Below are positions 1,713 through 13,007 of a DNA stretch of 13,007 nucleotides, piece after piece. Below the pieces are notes generated by a model. The model did no database searches and was not told the DNA's origin. It worked only from the letters and a program-made list of their open reading frames with translations. Made by a program: the position numbers and the translations under genes. How positions within the stretch are numbered: position 1 is the first letter of the stretch; every line of letters begins with the position of its first letter. The DNA is from Chloroflexota bacterium (GTDB lineage: Bacteria > Chloroflexota > Dehalococcoidia > JACQGW01), in the NCBI GenBank assembly GCA_016199325.1, contig JACQGW010000178.1, forward strand, positions 1 to 13,007, given 5' to 3'.

Positions 1713-2381
1713 TCACTCCAGGAGCGTTGCGGCGACGTGGGCGAGGGCCGATCGGGCGACGATGGTCGGGATGCCCGCCGTGGCTCGGACGACCTGACCC
1801 ATCGCCCGGGTGTAGCCGATGCAGTCCATGACAATCAGGCCGGCGCCGGCTCGGCGGAGCGTCTCGGCGGCGGCGGGCAGCCTCTCCGCTTCCGTATACG
1901 GCGACGCAGAGGCGACGACGACGTCGGGGACGATCTTGCCCCAGCGCTCGTACTGGAACCCCTCCTGTTCGACCGCCGGGCAGAGAACGCCGAGACGACC
2001 GCCGATCTGCACGGCCCGGACGACGTTGTAGAGGACGTGCTCGGGGTAGATCGCCAGTCGATCCGACCGGATCTCGGGGAAGCTGCCGGTGCAGAGCATC
2101 AGGATCACGTCGACCTGCGGCTGGAGCCAGTCCAGACACGCCTGCATGCGAGGAACGACGAAGCCCTCCCGAATGCGCACCTCGGTGCCGTCCCGCATGC
2201 GCGTCACGAGCACCGGTCCGTTGGCGTCCAGCCCCTTCGCCCGAACGACGTCCATCCCGACCTTGTCGAGCGCGCCGCACTCGACAACCTCGACGTCCGA
2301 CCCGAGAATCGCCAGGACCTCGGGGACGACGTCCGACCGCGGCGCCTGGCCCACCGTTACCGTCCCGATCACTCGACTCAT
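1713..2381 (-). CDS. aroM: AroM family protein
   Basis: A 222-residue cytoplasmic protein, close to the length of E. coli AroM (about 225). The N-terminal GTVTVGQAPRSDVVPE and the C-terminal DCIGYT are typical of the AroM family (PF07302), whose reaction is unknown. Two cysteines sit in loops after beta-strands: C97 in LMLCTGS and C187 in VMDCIGYT. A paired-cysteine layout of this kind is the hallmark of the Asp/Glu racemase superfamily (glutamate, aspartate and hydantoin racemases), so a racemase-like activity is a reasonable inference, not a demonstrated one. The ATG overlaps the stop of the upstream DUF1177 gene (ATGA), which suggests translational coupling. It is the last gene of the minus-strand operon and ends 4 bases from the convergent hairpin. 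The family name comes from linkage to aroL in enterics and does not imply a role in aromatic synthesis here. Confidence 0.9.
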   Translation of the reverse strand: MSRVIGTVTVGQAPRSDVVPEVLAILGSDVEVVECGALDKVGMDVVRAKGLDANGPVLVTRMRDGTEVRIREGFVVPRMQACLDWLQPQVDVILMLCTGSFPEIRSDRLAIYPEHVLYNVVRAVQIGGRLGVLCPAVEQEGFQYERWGKIVPDVVVASASPYTEAERLPAAAETLRRAGAGLIVMDCIGYTRAMGQVVRATAGIPTIVARSALAHVAATLLE

Positions 2382-3313
2382 CGTTTCGCTCCCAGCGTTT
2401 GGAGGTGCGTCATCGGCCCGTAGAGCTCGACCAGACGGGCGAGCTCGTCGGCATCGTAGAAGCGGCAGCGACCGGCGCCGAAGGCTTTGGCGGTCTCGAC
2501 GGCGAATCGGGCAGCCTGCTCGATGTCGACCTCATGGCTTGCACCGGTGGCGACGCCGGGCACGGCGGTCTCCGCCGTAATGGCGACGCCGACGACCGGC
2601 GCGCTCGTCGCCGTCGCCGGCTGCAGGATCGAGTTGAGGTGGAAGACGCCGTTGCCGTACGGCGTGATGTCCTGCGTGGTGACGGCGAACACCACCGGCA
2701 GCCGCCCGGTGACGATCTGCATGATGCCGAGGAGATCCTCGCTGACGCGGAGGATGTACCCCTCTTTGATGGTCGGCGAGATGGCGAAGCCGCGATGGTT
2801 CACGATGCGGTTCCCCTTCGTCGTGTCGAGGGAGAGGATCGCCTCCATCTGCGGCTCGACGCAGGCGCGGTTCATCGCCGGGATGTCGATCGGCGAGCCG
2901 AGAAACGCCACGGGGTCGTGGGGGATGGTGCCGGCGCGCGGGCAGACGTGCGTGGCGACGACGACGTCGCCGGCCAGGAGATCGCCGCTCGCCTGCATGT
3001 CCATGAGCTTGAGCGCCGCCGACAGCGCGGCGACGGCGCCGTCTCCATCGGAGACGAGGCCGATCTGCTCGGGCCGGGCGCCGATGCCGCCCAGAAAGCC
3101 GATGACGCCGAGGGTTGGCGTCCCTCCCCCGCTGCTCCGGCCCGCCGTCCCCGGCACGACGAGCTTGACGAAATCGGTGCTGCCGCGCGGTCCGCTCACC
3201 GTCTCGACCCGGACGTCCGGCCACCCACGGCGGGCGAAGAACGCGGCGACGACGTCCCCGTTGACCTTGGCGCTGTCGAGCAGGTCGTAGATCTCCAACA
3301 CTTGCTTGAGCAT
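2378..3313 (-). CDS. DUF1177 family protein
   Basis: A 311-residue protein recognised as the DUF1177 family (PF06675), function unknown. The start at 3313 is chosen because GAGGGAGGG lies just upstream; the longer in-frame start at 3457 would run into the FAD oxidoreductase gene. Features seen are a conserved GFLGGIG segment near 72-78, SDGDGA at 88-93, THVCP at 121-125 and PHDPV at 131-135. These Asp and His clusters, spaced like metal ligands between beta-strands, make a metal-dependent hydrolase or peptidase-like fold plausible, but that is inference. No signal peptide or transmembrane helix is visible. It starts 16 bases after the stop of the FAD oxidoreductase and overlaps the aroM start by 4 bases, so the three are very likely co-transcribed and act in one pathway. 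Confidence 0.87.
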   Translation of the reverse strand: MLKQVLEIYDLLDSAKVNGDVVAAFFARRGWPDVRVETVSGPRGSTDFVKLVVPGTAGRSSGGGTPTLGVIGFLGGIGARPEQIGLVSDGDGAVAALSAALKLMDMQASGDLLAGDVVVATHVCPRAGTIPHDPVAFLGSPIDIPAMNRACVEPQMEAILSLDTTKGNRIVNHRGFAISPTIKEGYILRVSEDLLGIMQIVTGRLPVVFAVTTQDITPYGNGVFHLNSILQPATATSAPVVGVAITAETAVPGVATGASHEVDIEQAARFAVETAKAFGAGRCRFYDADELARLVELYGPMTHLQTLGAKR

Positions 3314-3329
3314 CTCACCCTCCCTCAAA

Positions 3330-4577
3330 TCAACCGCGGCGAAAGCGCGCCGGGCTGAACGGCTCCAGGACCGCAGGCGGTCGGCCCGACAGGAGCATCT
3401 CTGCCACCGCCTCGCCGGTCGCCGGGCCCAGGCTGACTCCCAGCATGCCGTGTCCACTGGCCACGAAGAGATTGTCGAGCCCGGGGATCGGGCCGATCAC
3501 CGGAATACCGTCGGGGGCGAGCGGCCGCAGACCGCTCCAGGCCGGCTTGTGCGGCGCATCGGCCGGCCAGCCACGCAGGTAGCGCCGGGGAGCACGCAGG
3601 ATCGCCTCCACTCTCGTGTCGAGGATCCGGTCGTTCACGCCCGACAGCTCCATCGTGCCGGCCAATCGGACGGCTCCGTCCAGCGGCGTCACGGCCACCC
3701 GCGGCTCGTGCAGGTAGATGGGCTGAGATACCGCCAGCGGCGGCGGCATGAAGTCGATGCTGTAGCCCTTGGCGGCCTCGACAGGAAGCGACGCCCCGAC
3801 GAGCCGTGCCACCGCCGCGGTCCAGGCGCCGGCGCAGATGACCAGTTGGTCCGCCTCGACCGGCCCGTCGGCGGTCCGAACTGCCCGCACGATGGGGCCT
3901 GTGCGCTCGAAGCCGACGACCGGACATTGGCGCCGGATCTCGACACCCCGACCGAGCAGATGCTCAACGAGCCCGCTCATGAGCGTGTCAACGCGGACGT
4001 GACGCTCGTTGCCGACGAAGATCCCCCCGGCCAGGCCCTCCACCAGCGCCGGCTCCCTGGCGCGAAGGGCATCGCCTTCCAGCAGCTCGGGAGCATACCC
4101 GTACGCCCGGAGCTGCGACAGCTCGTGCCAGTGGCGCTGGAGATCGCCGGGCAGCCGGTGGACGAACAGAATACCGGTCCTGTGGTATTCGAACGGGATC
4201 CCGCAGGCGGCCAGCTCGTCGAAGAGCGCCATGGTCCGGCTCCCCAGCGCAAACGTGGCCTGGAACCCGGCGTGGTGGTCCGCTGCGTTGCAGTGGCGCC
4301 AGAACGCCAGCAGCCACCGTGCGAAGGAGGGATCGGCCCGCGGCTTGATGTACAGCGGGCTATCCGACCGGAGCATCCATTTGAGGGATGCAGCCAGGAT
4401 CCCCGGCCCCGGCACAGGTCCGGAGAGCGACGGCACGATCCAGCCGGCGTTGCCGTGCGAGGCGCCCCGCCCCGGCTCCGCCGCCTCGATCACCGTCACG
4501 CGCGCGCCACGCCGGTCGAGTGCCAGGGCCGTACACAGGCCGATCACGCCGCCGCCGATCAGGACAATTCGCCCCAT
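3330..4577 (-). CDS. FAD-dependent D-amino-acid dehydrogenase-like oxidoreductase (DadA/DAO family)
   Basis: A 415-residue flavoprotein of the DAO superfamily. The N-terminal dinucleotide-binding motif GGGVIG is at 8-13, with E31 at the end of the second strand as the expected ribose ligand and GNAGW at 42-46 as the FAD-contact loop typical of DadA-type enzymes. The C-terminal FAD motif RPLAPDGIPVIGPIPG starts at 351 and is followed by GHGMLGVSLGPATG. Family members oxidise D-amino acids, glycine, sarcosine or similar amines to keto or imino acids and pass electrons to quinone or oxygen; the substrate cannot be read from sequence. The ATG is preceded by GGAGGGG. It lies 85 bases downstream of the TatA-like gene and 16 bases upstream of DUF1177. 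A weak promoter-like TTGCAT/CAGACT pair with 17-base spacing occurs in the 85-base gap, so it may also be transcribed on its own. Confidence 0.88.
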   Translation of the reverse strand: MGRIVLIGGGVIGLCTALALDRRGARVTVIEAAEPGRGASHGNAGWIVPSLSGPVPGPGILAASLKWMLRSDSPLYIKPRADPSFARWLLAFWRHCNAADHHAGFQATFALGSRTMALFDELAACGIPFEYHRTGILFVHRLPGDLQRHWHELSQLRAYGYAPELLEGDALRAREPALVEGLAGGIFVGNERHVRVDTLMSGLVEHLLGRGVEIRRQCPVVGFERTGPIVRAVRTADGPVEADQLVICAGAWTAAVARLVGASLPVEAAKGYSIDFMPPPLAVSQPIYLHEPRVAVTPLDGAVRLAGTMELSGVNDRILDTRVEAILRAPRRYLRGWPADAPHKPAWSGLRPLAPDGIPVIGPIPGLDNLFVASGHGMLGVSLGPATGEAVAEMLLSGRPPAVLEPFSPARFRRG

Positions 4578-5194: not shown

Positions 5195-5283
5195 TCCGAG
5201 CCGCGAACGGAAGGGAGCCGCTCCCCTGCGCGCGGGAGTCGATCGCGCGCCGGGGAACGGCTCACTCACGTTCGCGGCTCGGA
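5195..5283. repeat. Large palindrome with 40-bp arms
   Basis: Arms at 5195-5234 and 5244-5283 pair at about 35 of 40 positions around a 9-base loop. The outer 15 bases, TCCGAGCCGCGAACG, are perfect. It lies in the intergenic region between the divergent TatA-like gene and the 59-aa gene and would form a very stable cruciform or RNA hairpin. It is unlike the REP palindrome at 5892-5973, so it represents a second repeat family or a single-copy structure. Confidence 0.75.
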
Positions 5284-5550: not shown

Positions 5551-5730
5551 ATGGAGCTCTCTCTCCAACCCGACGAAGTGGCGCTGCTAGACAGGGTTCT
5601 TACCACCTACCTCGGCGACCTGCGGATGGAGGTCTCCAACACGGAGAACTATGACCTCCGCCAGAGTCTGAAGCGGGACGAGGCGCTGATCAAAGCCATC
5701 CTGGTCCGGCTGAGGGAGGGGAGATCGTAG
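5551..5730 (+). CDS. Conserved small hypothetical protein, 59 aa
   Basis: The ATG is preceded by GGGAGGA about 9 bases upstream and by a TTGACA promoter. The sequence (start MELSLQPDEVALLDRVLTTY) is charged and predicted to be almost wholly helical: a Leu-rich first helix, the segment DLRMEVSNTENYDLR, then a second helix LKRDEALIKAILVRLREG. I recall similar 55-65-residue proteins of unknown function with DLRMEI..T.N...R in GC-rich environmental bacteria. Two amphipathic helices suggest a helical hairpin that may oligomerise or bind a partner. There is no Cys, signal or membrane segment. The gene is monocistronic: its stop codon TAG abuts the outer arm of a large repeat block. Confidence 0.8.
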   Translation: MELSLQPDEVALLDRVLTTYLGDLRMEVSNTENYDLRQSLKRDEALIKAILVRLREGRS

Positions 5731-5746
5731 GAACTCGTAGGAGCTC

Positions 5747-5890
5747 GGTCATGCGGAGCCGTTGCGGTTCCACGTTGGGGACTCCGGGGAACTCGGTCAT
5801 GCGGAGCCGCTGCGGGTTCACGCTGGGGACTCGGGGGAGTTCAGTCATGCTGAGCCGCTGCGGGTCCACGCTGGGGACTCGGGGGAGTTC
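5747..5890 (+). repeat. Three tandem 48-bp repeat units
   Basis: The units are 5747-5794, 5795-5842 and 5843-5890. Each begins with RGTCATGCKGAGCCG, continues TGCGG..CACG.TGGGGACTC and ends GGGGRRYTC. Units 2 and 3 differ at about three positions; unit 1 is more diverged. The first 20 bases recur at 5891-5910 as the left arm of the REP palindrome, so the array seems to have grown from that arm. Because 48 is a multiple of 3, spurious ORFs run through it. Confidence 0.85.
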
Positions 5891-5891
5891 A

Positions 5892-5973
5892 GTCATGCGG
5901 AGCCGCTGCGAAGCATCTCCCCGGCAGCTGCGCGTTCGGCCTGGGGAGATGCGTCGCTGCGGCTCCGCATGAC
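5892..5973. repeat. REP-like palindrome, copy A
   Basis: The 31-bp arms at 5892-5922 and 5943-5973 pair at 29 of 31 positions around a 20-base loop. The left arm begins GTCATGCGGAGCCGCTGCG and ends GCATCTCCCC. The same arm type occurs at 12948-12978, so it is a dispersed intergenic family. The right end (ATGACA) is the site where the adjacent 100-bp element sits. Confidence 0.85.
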
Positions 5974-6082
5974 AGGAGTCCACTGAGAAAAGGCTCTCTG
6001 GCGCGATTCAAGCGCCGATTTCACGAGTGTTTCCGCCAGTCGGATACGCGCGATCCGGCTTTTTTCAGTGGACTCATGACAG
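5969..6082 (+). mobile_element. MITE-like element, copy A (100 bp plus 7-bp target duplications)
   Basis: The element spans 5976-6075, exactly 100 bp. Its terminal inverted repeats are GAGTCCACTGAGAAAAG on the left and the complement of GAGTCCACTGAAAAAAG on the right, matching at 16 of 17 positions. It is flanked by the perfect direct repeat ATGACAG at 5969-5975 and 6076-6082. It has no coding capacity. A second copy lies at 12846-12945 in the opposite orientation. The interior can also pair locally (GGCGC with GCGCC; TGGCG with CGCCA). The 7-bp duplication and the TIRs indicate mobilisation by a DDE transposase encoded elsewhere. Confidence 0.8.
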
Positions 6083-6129: not shown

Positions 6130-7296
6130 TCAGTCGATGTCCGACCCGTCGCCGGTGGCGGTGGCGTCGCCGGCAGCGACGAGCTCCCTGGCCGTCTGGC
6201 CGGGCTCGGGGATCTCCTGCCAGCGGGTCTGGAGTCGGGCCATGATCTGGGGCATCGTCGTGTATTCGAGCTCGTCCAGGTGCAGGCGATGCGGCTCGAA
6301 CGGCCCCTGCCGCCGCATCATGTCGGCCATCTCGTTGGCGATCTGCCGTGCCCGATCGAAGCCGCTGTCGGCAAACATGTCCCGCGGGCCGATGAGCTTG
6401 CCGTTGGCGATCTGGAACCCCAGCGCGACGACCCGCGGCGGGCCATCCATGCGGCTGGGTCGAGCATCCTCGACGGCGCAGGGCATCAGCGGCCCGCAGT
6501 GACTCCCTCGCATCCAGCCGTTGACCCAGTACGGGACCGCAAAGGGCTCGATCACCTCGCCCACCGCCGGCATCCCGCTCTGGCAGCGAACGATGAGCGA
6601 CGGGTCATCCTTGCCGACGTAGCGCCCGGCGATCAGGCTGAGCTTGGTCGTCGTGGCGACGGCGCAGATCTCGTTCATCTCACGCGAGATCACCTGTTTC
6701 ATCACGAAACGCCCCGGCGCGCCGATGAACATCAGCAGGTCGTAGAGCTCCTCCGGGCAGTCGAGCGTGATGCAGGTCCCCGCCTTCAGATCGTGGACCT
6801 CGAAGGTGAATCCCCGATGCATCTTGCTGTCGATCACCAGGCCGGGGGTGTTGAAGGGATCGGCAAAGATCTTGTACAGGGGAAAGTTCCAGGCGCCGGG
6901 CTCTGTCTTGTCGGCCATGAACACGATGATCGGCTCGGACGGCCGCTCCTCGAACTCCATCTCGCAGACCCCGGGCCCCAGGCCCCGAACGTTGCCGGAG
7001 AAGGCGTCGACCAGCAGGTCCTGACCCGCTCCGTACTGCTTGAGCTCCCGTGCCACTTCGGTGACCTGCTTGAAGGTGTCCCAGGCCAACCCATGAATGC
7101 GGGGGCTGTCCACCCCGTGCTGGTGCGTCATGATCAGGTTGATATCGTCGCCGACCCGGGTGACGTGGAAGTCGATGAGCAAGTCCGATTGAGCCAGCAA
7201 CTGCCGCGATCTCTCCATCATCGCCGGATGCACTTCGCCGTGACCGACGTAGCCGCCGACATCGGCTTTGATGACGCTGACGGTGATTCTCGCCAT
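6130..7296 (-). CDS. fbp: Fructose-1,6-bisphosphate aldolase/phosphatase (type V)
   Basis: A 388-residue bifunctional enzyme that condenses dihydroxyacetone phosphate and glyceraldehyde-3-phosphate and then removes the C1 phosphate to give fructose-6-phosphate, making gluconeogenesis one-way. The family is known from Archaea and deep-branching bacteria. The N-terminal SVIKADVGGYVGHGEVHP carries the metal and substrate ligands D12 and H19, and D50-D51 are in VGDDINL. The Schiff-base lysine is K229 in GRYVGKDD with partner Y226, and Y345 near the C-terminus is the further active-site tyrosine. These sit at a constant offset of 3 from the numbering I recall for the Thermoproteus enzyme (Y229, K232, Y348). 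Length is typical; residues after about 370 are a low-complexity tail. The ATG has AGAGGAGA upstream and a good promoter. No classical class II aldolase or FBPase is in the window. Confidence 0.96.
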   Translation of the reverse strand: MARITVSVIKADVGGYVGHGEVHPAMMERSRQLLAQSDLLIDFHVTRVGDDINLIMTHQHGVDSPRIHGLAWDTFKQVTEVARELKQYGAGQDLLVDAFSGNVRGLGPGVCEMEFEERPSEPIIVFMADKTEPGAWNFPLYKIFADPFNTPGLVIDSKMHRGFTFEVHDLKAGTCITLDCPEELYDLLMFIGAPGRFVMKQVISREMNEICAVATTTKLSLIAGRYVGKDDPSLIVRCQSGMPAVGEVIEPFAVPYWVNGWMRGSHCGPLMPCAVEDARPSRMDGPPRVVALGFQIANGKLIGPRDMFADSGFDRARQIANEMADMMRRQGPFEPHRLHLDELEYTTMPQIMARLQTRWQEIPEPGQTARELVAAGDATATGDGSDID

Positions 7297-10815: not shown

Positions 10816-12681
10816 GTGGAACCTGGGGTCCTGTCCGACGCAACCCGTGAGCTCTGGCACAATCTGGCCCAACAACTGCGGGCCGACAGCATCCGCAGTA
10901 CGACGGCCGCCGGCTCCGGCCACCCGTCGTCTTCGATGTCGGCCGCCGACCTGATGGCCGCGCTGCTAGCCGGCCACCTGCGCTACGACTTCGCCCACCC
11001 GGACAACCCGAGCAACGACCACCTGGTTTTCTCGAAAGGCCATGCAGCGCCCCTGCTGTACGCCCTCTACAAAGCCGCCGGCGCCATCTCAGATGCCGAG
11101 CTGATGAGCCTGCGGAAGCTCGGCAGCCGTCTGGAGGGCCACCCCGTGCCGACGCTCCCCTGGGTCGACGTCGCCACCGGATCGCTGGGGCAGGGCCTGC
11201 CCATCGGCGTCGGCATCGCGCTGGCCGGCCGGTATCTCGACCGCCTTCCCTATCGCGTCTGGGTGCTGCTGGGCGACGCCGAGATGGCGGAGGGATCCGT
11301 CTGGGAGGCCATCGACAAAGCGGCCCACTACCGCCTGGGCAACCTCATCGCCGTGGTCGACGTGAACCGCCTGGGCCAGAGCGCGCCGACCGAGCTCGAA
11401 TGGAACCTCGATGCCTACGTCGAGCGGGCCCGGGGGTTCGGCTGGCATGCGATCGCCGTCGACGGCCACGACCTCGACCAGATTCACGCCGCCTACACGG
11501 AGGCCGCCGGGCAGACCGAGCGGCCAACGCTGATCGCCGCGCGGACGGTCAAGGGGAAGGGGTTCTCTGCCATCGAGAACCGGCTCGGCATGCACGGCCG
11601 GGCGCTGACGGCCGAGGAGGCGAGCCGAGCGATCGCCGAGCTGGGTGGGGAGCGCGGGCTCGTCGTCGACGTCCGACCGCCGGACGCGGCGCGCCCGGCG
11701 CCCCTGCCCCCGCCCCGGCCCATTGAGCTCCCGCGGTACGAGCGCGGCAGCTCGGCCTCGACGCGCAGGGCGTTCGGCGATGCGCTACGGGCGCTGGGCG
11801 CCGCTCGGCCGGACGTCGTCGCCCTCGACGGCGACGTCCAGAACTCGACCTACACCGAGACCTTCGCGCAGGCGTTCCCCGACCGGTTCTTCCAGATGTT
11901 CATCGCCGAGCAGCAGATGATCGCGGCGGCCATCGGCCTCGACGTCCGCCACTACGTCCCCTTCGCCGCCACGTTCGCCGCCTTTCTGACCCGCGCCGCC
12001 GATTTCATCCGGATGGCGGCGGTCTCCCGGGCCAACCTCCGGCTCTGTGGCTCCCACGCCGGCGTCTCTATCGGCGAAGACGGACCTTCCCAGATGGGCC
12101 TGGAGGACCTGGCGCTATTCCGCGCCGTCCACGGCAGCACCGTTCTCTACCCCTGCGACGCCAACCAGACCACCCACCTCGTCGCCGCCATGGCCGACCG
12201 GGCGGGGATCGTCTACCTGCGCTCGACGCGGGAGCGGACGCCGGTCATCTACGGGCCGGAGGAGCGGTTTGCCGTGGGGGGAAGCCGGGTGCTCCGCCAA
12301 TCTGAGGATGACCGGGCCACGGTCGTCGCCGCCGGCATCGCCGTCCACGAGGTGCTGGCCGCCGCCGAGCAGCTCCGGGCCGAGGGTATCGGCGTCCGCG
12401 TCGTCGACGCCTACTCGGTGAAGCCCATCGACGCCGCCACTCTTCGGGCCGCCGTTCAGGCGACGGGCGGCCGGCTGGTGACCGTCGAAGACCACTATCC
12501 GGAAGGCGGCCTCGGCGACGCCGCGCTGGCCGCGCTGGCCGAGGGCGGGCCGGTCCGGCTCTCCTACCGCAAGCTCGCCGTCGCCGGGATGCCCTGCTCG
12601 GGCAAGCCGGCCGAGCTCCTGCGCTGGGCCGGCATCGACGCCGCCCACATCGTCGAGGCGGTCAAGGGGCTGCTCGACTAG
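10816..12681 (+). CDS. tkt: Transketolase (single-chain, short type)
   Basis: A 621-residue thiamine-diphosphate enzyme of the pentose phosphate cycle that moves two-carbon units between sugar phosphates. The GTG start at 10816 is chosen because GGAGGAG ends 3 bases upstream; an ATG at 10798 lacks a comparable site. Domain 1 has GSGHPSSS with H36, SKGHA with H76, the GSLGQGL loop, and the ThDP motif from GDAEMAEG (G153, D154) to VDVNRLGQ (N184). GMHG at about 258-261 lies before a Pro-rich linker (near 295-310). Domain 2 carries MFIAEQQM, whose Glu should activate the thiazolium, then SHAGVSIGEDGPSQM. The C-terminal domain (DDRATVVAAG onward) is the transketolase C fold. Length fits the roughly 620-residue animal/archaeal-like type, not the 660-residue E. 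coli type. Both halves are fused, unlike split archaeal enzymes. It could act on a related substrate, but all core motifs fit transketolase. Confidence 0.95.
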   Translation: MEPGVLSDATRELWHNLAQQLRADSIRSTTAAGSGHPSSSMSAADLMAALLAGHLRYDFAHPDNPSNDHLVFSKGHAAPLLYALYKAAGAISDAELMSLRKLGSRLEGHPVPTLPWVDVATGSLGQGLPIGVGIALAGRYLDRLPYRVWVLLGDAEMAEGSVWEAIDKAAHYRLGNLIAVVDVNRLGQSAPTELEWNLDAYVERARGFGWHAIAVDGHDLDQIHAAYTEAAGQTERPTLIAARTVKGKGFSAIENRLGMHGRALTAEEASRAIAELGGERGLVVDVRPPDAARPAPLPPPRPIELPRYERGSSASTRRAFGDALRALGAARPDVVALDGDVQNSTYTETFAQAFPDRFFQMFIAEQQMIAAAIGLDVRHYVPFAATFAAFLTRAADFIRMAAVSRANLRLCGSHAGVSIGEDGPSQMGLEDLALFRAVHGSTVLYPCDANQTTHLVAAMADRAGIVYLRSTRERTPVIYGPEERFAVGGSRVLRQSEDDRATVVAAGIAVHEVLAAAEQLRAEGIGVRVVDAYSVKPIDAATLRAAVQATGGRLVTVEDHYPEGGLGDAALAALAEGGPVRLSYRKLAVAGMPCSGKPAELLRWAGIDAAHIVEAVKGLLD

Positions 12682-12838: not shown

Positions 12839-12952
12839 TTGTCATGAGTCCCCTGAAAAAAGCCGGACCGCGCGTTTCCGACTGGCGGAAACACTCGGGA
12901 AATCGGTGCGTGAACCGCGCCAAAAGGCCTTTTTTCAGTGGACTCTTGTCAT
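12839..12952 (-). mobile_element. MITE-like element, copy B (100 bp plus 7-bp target duplications)
   Basis: The element spans 12846-12945, again exactly 100 bp, in reverse orientation to copy A. The terminal repeats match at 16 of 17 positions (GAGTCCCCTGAAAAAAG against GAGTCCACTGAAAAAAG). It is flanked by the perfect direct repeat TTGTCAT at 12839-12845 and 12946-12952, the complement of ATGACAA. Compared with copy A over the shared 110 bp I count about 12 differences. Confidence 0.8.
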
Positions 12953-13007
12953 GCTGAGCCGCAGCGAAGCATCTCCCCGTCGCGAGCAGACGTCGTCCGG
13001 GAGATGC
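12948..13007. repeat. REP-like palindrome, copy B (cut by window end)
   Basis: The left arm (12948-12978) starts GTCATGCTGAGCCGCAGCG and ends GCATCTCCCC, differing from the copy A left arm at two positions. After a 20-base loop the right arm begins GGGAGATGC and runs off the window. As at copy A, its outer end abuts a MITE-like element. Confidence 0.8.

Follow-up and report, generated by a model that had tools for sequence, protein, structure and literature searches.

Two 100-bp MITE-like elements in copies of one dispersed host repeat, and an IS1182-like transposase as their probable mobilizer

The window, by which we mean the whole stretch of 13,007 nucleotides of a Chloroflexota bacterium analysed here, contains two 100-bp elements, A and B. 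It is very probable that these are MITEs which were moved in trans by an IS1182-like transposase and inserted separately; present-day mobility is not part of this claim. For this window alone they are ordinary mobile DNA, and the small curiosity is that they share their landing position within one kind of host repeat. Beyond the window, geneless elements in MAGs of several phyla can be tied to one IS1182-like clade with a plain 6–7 bp duplication, a transposase clade that the current curated model of the IS1182 family misses.

Element anatomy and insertion sites

Copy A occupies positions 5976–6075 on the + strand. Copy B, at 12846–12945 on the - strand, is inverted relative to A and agrees with it at 89 of 100 positions in an ungapped alignment, as had been described in an earlier note on this DNA, which gave the same coordinates, length and opposite orientation and an identity of 88–89%. 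The 17-bp terminal inverted repeats reported there are likewise present. In A the left repeat, GAGTCCACTGAGAAAAG (5976–5992, +), matches the right (6059–6075, -) at 16 of 17 bases, and the same score is found in B between the left repeat (12929–12945, -) and the right (12846–12862, +). Each copy is enclosed by the exact 7-bp direct repeat that had been claimed for it. These are ATGACAG at 5969–5975 and 6076–6082 (both +) for A, and ATGACAA for B, on the - strand at 12946–12952 (left in element orientation) and 12839–12845 (right in element orientation).

The end sequence GAGTCCNCTGAAAAAAG has four matches in the window when up to three mismatches are allowed, and these are the four element ends; 0.04 matches were expected. 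Inverted ends with an exact 7-bp flanking repeat occur twice in the window and in none of 200 first-order Markov resamplings, the ends being defined as 15 bp with at most two mismatches and 60–200 bp apart. The features of a MITE are present in both elements, which are short and without a transposase gene, have terminal inverted repeats and are flanked by an exact target site duplication, with an uninterrupted paralogous site in the case of A. As for copy number, two elements are seen within 13 kb of host sequence. The ends match those of autonomous IS, at loci L180 and L071, with all such IS coming from other genomes. The reading of A and B as MITEs with 7-bp target duplications is therefore supported by the anatomy, by the resampling test and by the related ends on full IS elsewhere.

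Other bacterial MITEs are of this kind, and MITEAba12 is reportedly an example, geneless with terminal inverted repeats and short direct repeats. QMITE2 of Coxiella burnetii also has no gene, with terminal inverted repeats and direct repeats of 7–9 bp (PMC10969869). The ends of both are unlike those of the window elements. The 15-base end sequence was found in no open PMC paper, and the MITE review PMC10969869 makes no mention of IS1182 or of Chloroflex-.

A repeat search of the window paired 5943–6081 with 12840–12978 (139 bp, 90%), which is longer than the elements themselves. Similarity is thus not confined to the element, a point absent from the earlier note, since 33 bp of one flank are also alike (30 of 33 bases shared by A and B). 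Were an element and its adjoining host repeat copied together after a single insertion, through segmental duplication, gene conversion or recombination between repeats? The shared flank would be accounted for in that way. However, this flank is itself a dispersed repeat of the host, GGGGAGATGCTTCGCTGCGGCTCAGCATGACA, of which there is a copy without an element at 5892–5917. A interrupts the repeat at its outer end (5943–5974, +) and B interrupts it at the same position (12947–12978, -), and the 33-bp similarity arises because the two insertion points within this dispersed repeat coincide. The other flanks of A and B have nothing in common beyond six of the seven bases of the duplication. In addition, both duplications of A carry G as their seventh base and both of B carry A, as two separate staggered insertions would directly produce. 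Copying of a single insertion is for these reasons improbable. The shared flank, the differing seventh base and the unlike other flanks together argue for separate insertions of A and B, as had been proposed, each into its own copy of the repeat. The flank might also be taken as a sign that the elements belong to a larger repeat unit; this reading was rejected. Homology extends through one flank only, that of the shared landing repeat, and does not always run through both.

Rejoining the flanks of A with one duplication kept restores an intact repeat. The joined sequence aligns through the insertion point with an uninterrupted copy of the landing repeat at 5874–5922 on the - strand (5922–5874, 49 bp, 90%), about 50 bp from A. 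Further matches to the joined flanks are at 5761–5715 (83%), 5862–5826 (86%) and 5814–5778 (81%). The search for empty sites that had been suggested was thus successful for A, in the form of this paralogous site. For B the joined flanks have window matches on the repeat side only, and an empty site was not found within the window. The region 5730–5922 is an array of three to four 48-bp units, each of which includes the inner portion of this repeat.

Related elements and full insertion sequences in other genomes

When 84,980 species genomes were scanned for the pattern of both ends, at 80–140 bp overall, 18 loci were identified, and these are in MAGs labelled Sediminispirochaeta, Spirochaetaceae, Campylobacterales, Magnetococcales and Anaerolineales. 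One of the related MITEs, in a Sediminispirochaeta MAG (L001:480-590), is inside a palindrome with 21-bp arms. One Anaerolineales MAG, G004, contains 48 occurrences of the 15-base end, compared with none for the reversed control. Among 201 Anaerolineales genomes the 17-base end is present in seven, with 41 occurrences in G004 and 20 in G416; its control had one match in the same genomes (G432). In the phylum at large the exact 17-base end is rare, being found in two of 400 genomes, and control matches were also found in two. In one of the former two genomes, G520, there is a 99-bp element flanked by AAGAAT.

Do the related elements also make target duplications? Of 72 end pairs, 21 have an exact duplication of 6 bp and six have one of 7 bp, and shuffled flank pairs gave means of 0.47 and 0.15, respectively. 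The remaining 45 pairs are without an exact duplication of 6–7 bp. This count omits loci L019–L074 except L071; most of these are places fetched a second time, but some, such as L019–L021, thereby went uncounted. It also omits pairs with fewer than 10 flank bases, where the element lies at the end of a contig (L002 and L015, for example). The 72 include a few cases in which a single end was paired in more than one way (L003, L079). In a set of 80 fetched loci, 27 had no second end at the threshold used.

A DDE_Tnp_1 search of G004 found an IS of 1836 bp (L071:748-2583). Its ends have two and no mismatches, it is flanked by the duplication ATGTAT, and it contains a single open frame of 576 amino acids. 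The transposase aligns to the IS1182 model NF033551 over residues 46–521 of 576 (E 7.5e-39, 134 bits) and carries DUF772 and DDE_Tnp_1_6, both above the Pfam cut-off. These two domains are the typical make-up of the IS1182 family. Relatives of the transposase at E 1e-20 or better are present in 30 of 400 genomes of the order to which G004 belongs. The search gave 30 loci in all (L175–L204, L175 being the same as L071), of which 16 (L176–L191) were inspected for ends. Nine of these have ends on both sides within four mismatches of the consensus, a tenth, L189, has ends further from it, and at the other six the pair of ends that was sought was not found. A duplication is present in seven of the ten, six times of 6 bp and once of 7 bp. 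The closest ends are those of the L180 IS, where GAGTCCACTGAAAAAAC is present at both ends and is the same as the window consensus except for the 17th base. The flank of this IS permits a register of 6 or 8 bp, and the GAG register (6 bp) was adopted. Full IS of about 1.8 kb with near-identical ends are therefore present in other Chloroflexota, and the check for a full IS whose ends match the terminal inverted repeats was positive in those genomes (L180 and L071).

Of 7,998 candidate proteins scored, 4,368 are homologous at E 0.001 or better. Relatives of the transposase on haloarchaeal plasmids have 33% amino acid identity; the ends of their IS are of the type GAGGGC.C.G.A.AAAG, and two of the three examined are flanked by 7-bp duplications. 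Duplications of 6–7 bp are thus a property of the transposase clade and explain the 7 bp seen in the window.

Residues D157, D349 and E482 are invariant across nine aligned proteins and are read here as the putative DDE triad. The clade resembles the IS1182 family in this D/D/E, in its DDE_Tnp_1_6 and DUF772 domains and in its alignment to NF033551. It differs in that its proteins score below the curated cut-off of 270, all seven of seven giving 108–135 bits, compared with 299 and 326 for the annotated controls. Because of this we label the clade, and with it the putative parent of the window elements, IS1182-like.

The putative parent and the host lineage

By the mechanism that we propose, an IS1182-like IS, itself with ends close to GAGTCCNCTGAAAAAAG, would supply in trans a DDE transposase that binds and cuts the 17-bp ends of the element. 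This enzyme would then excise the element and insert it with staggered cuts of 6–7 bp at Y|AT sites. Each copy would have been inserted separately in a different copy of the dispersed hairpin repeat, with duplication of ATGACAR. From the ends, the duplication length and the target we infer that this transposase clade moved both copies and that its source exists or existed in the host. No other element or IS found has a counterpart of the 66-bp interior of A and B, and it is for this reason that the parent is linked by these three features only. Ends alone were rejected as proof of the parent.

Could the mobilizer have come from another transposase family, IS5/ISNCY-like or, like a gene fragment at the left edge of the window, IS66-like? 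The ends of an IS5-type IS in G005 (L074:1328-3194), GAGTCTCCTCAAAAA, are related, and this IS is flanked by the 6-bp duplication TAATTA, but its ends are further from those of the window elements than are the ends of L180 or L071. The fragment, at 1–396 on the + strand, encodes a piece of an IS66-like transposase unrelated to the IS1182-like clade. Its plasmid matches are 41–60% identical, with 'transposase' annotated in three of five records, and the IS66 domain PF03050 is found in one of nine other database homologues; Pfam alone gave no match for the piece itself. Its own ends are outside the window or were not recognised, and nothing was seen to connect it with the ends of the 100-bp elements. 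The closest ends found belong to the IS1182-like clade, and a mobilizer from another family is unlikely. The statement of the earlier note that nothing in the window encodes the transposase is correct for the IS1182-like clade, of which a Pfam scan of ten ORFs in the window found none, but a piece of the unrelated IS66-like transposase is encoded there.

The preferred source, an IS1182-like IS, was also sought closer to the host. The L180 transposase, searched against 29 genomes of the class, matched in three (G096, G072 and G168). In G096 there are two close pieces, 54% and 69% identical and with one stop codon, plus a distant one; the distant matches in the three genomes are 25–28% identical. 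These matches suggest that the clade was apparently once in the host lineage, and on such sequence comparison an IS1182-like transposase seems to have been present there.

When the element itself was compared with 301 Chloroflexota, matches at E 0.002–0.008 were obtained in five genomes. Two of these, in G004, are 19-bp element ends, and the other four matches, pieces of 26–50 bp, are taken as chance. In 16 genomes of the order of the nearest relative the 100-bp element was not found, in a search that had no known positive. End matches with up to two mismatches in the order of the host were found at seven places in four of 16 genomes, compared with five control places in two; six of these seven loci were read, and all six lack a second end. 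A 143-bp query found no match to the element in plasmids and phages. In viral contigs the 20-base element core was found at no place, a scan for single ends gave six loci with a second end at none, and a search for the transposase found none.

Hairpins, target choice and gene context

Copy A is at the foot of a REPIN-like doublet (5892–5973, +), in which two inverted copies of the host repeat surround a short loop and which folds as an RNA hairpin with an energy of -70.2 kcal/mol. Near B, a second inverted copy of the repeat seems to begin at 12999, with nine bases visible before the window ends. In the single repeat the outer pair is ATGCT/AGCAT at B and ATGCG/CGCAT at A, so that pairing is kept. 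The host repeat beside A is like REPINs, or REP doublets, in being an inverted doublet with a strong hairpin. It differs in that the doublet here is the landing site and not the 100-bp element itself. A variant of the host repeat, with two mismatches and uninterrupted, occurs at three places in G096, the only one of 16 genomes from the order of the nearest relative to have it. At a threshold of two mismatches the repeat is absent from the two nearest relatives, G176 and G240, and it was found in none of the viral contigs searched. A different inverted repeat, at 5195–5283, has 40-bp arms that are 88% complementary and separated by 9 nt; its sequence differs from that of the host repeat.

The elements too can fold. 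Are they domesticated RNA or DNA hairpins, such as terminators or mRNA stabilisers, with a regulatory role rather than mobile DNA? Both copies have strong folds (z -6.0 and -4.8) and lie outside recognisable genes, and A has one terminator-like stem followed by T, where 0.3 is expected in shuffles. Against this, the fold is mostly due to the terminal inverted repeats, a terminator-like site is lacking in B and no Rfam family reaches its gathering score. The target duplications and the IS with closely similar ends also show a mobile origin, which makes domesticated hairpins a most improbable explanation. The fold was rejected as an indication of functional RNA. The elements may have been put to regulatory use later.

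Of 29 duplicated sites (27 of the 72 pairs and two haloarchaeal IS, with the window sites excluded), 26 begin with A, 21 have T in second place and 27 are preceded by Y; these counts are without a composition control and the flanks are visibly A/T-rich. Both window sites read C|AT. Both are also at the edge of the hairpin repeat, with the duplication retained. Among the 29 related sites one (L001) is within a long palindrome, a count that has no shuffled control.

Members of the IS1182 family that target palindromes have been described (Siguier et al., as cited in PMC5678879). For IS1272, which is counted in this family, the same paper gives target stem-loop replacement as the proposed mechanism (PMC5678879). 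This differs from the IS1182-like clade here, which makes ordinary duplications of 6–7 bp. It is conceivable, and we put it forward as a tentative suggestion that is more doubtful than not, that the clade homes on REPIN-like hairpins in this lineage, recognising the foot C|ATGACAR and making a 7-bp duplication. If true, homing of this type would be a middle form between ordinary target use and stem-loop replacement of the IS1272 type, and the parasite would have a safe landing pad in the host repeat. Likewise, were landing at the hairpin foot to hold for further copies, it would show how closely related transposases shift between sequence-led and structure-led target choice.

Both elements are outside recognisable genes. 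Copy A lies between an ORF of 69 amino acids that ends at 5730, the standing of which is uncertain, and an FBPase gene (6130–7296), and B lies beyond a transketolase gene that ends at 12681. Elsewhere in the window, a gene for a protein with a predicted beta-lactamase fold is at 649–1632 on the + strand (Pfam Beta-lactamase2, E 2.8e-59), and adjacent AroM, DUF1177 and FAD-dependent oxidoreductase (DAO) genes are at 1713–4577 on the - strand. The FBPase gene, also on the - strand, encodes an archaeal-type fructose-1,6-bisphosphatase family protein (FBPase_3), with matches in 58 of 400 sampled Chloroflexota genomes. This protein is 78% identical to one from a Chloroflexota bacterium record and 82% identical to one from G176, of the phylum Chloroflexota.
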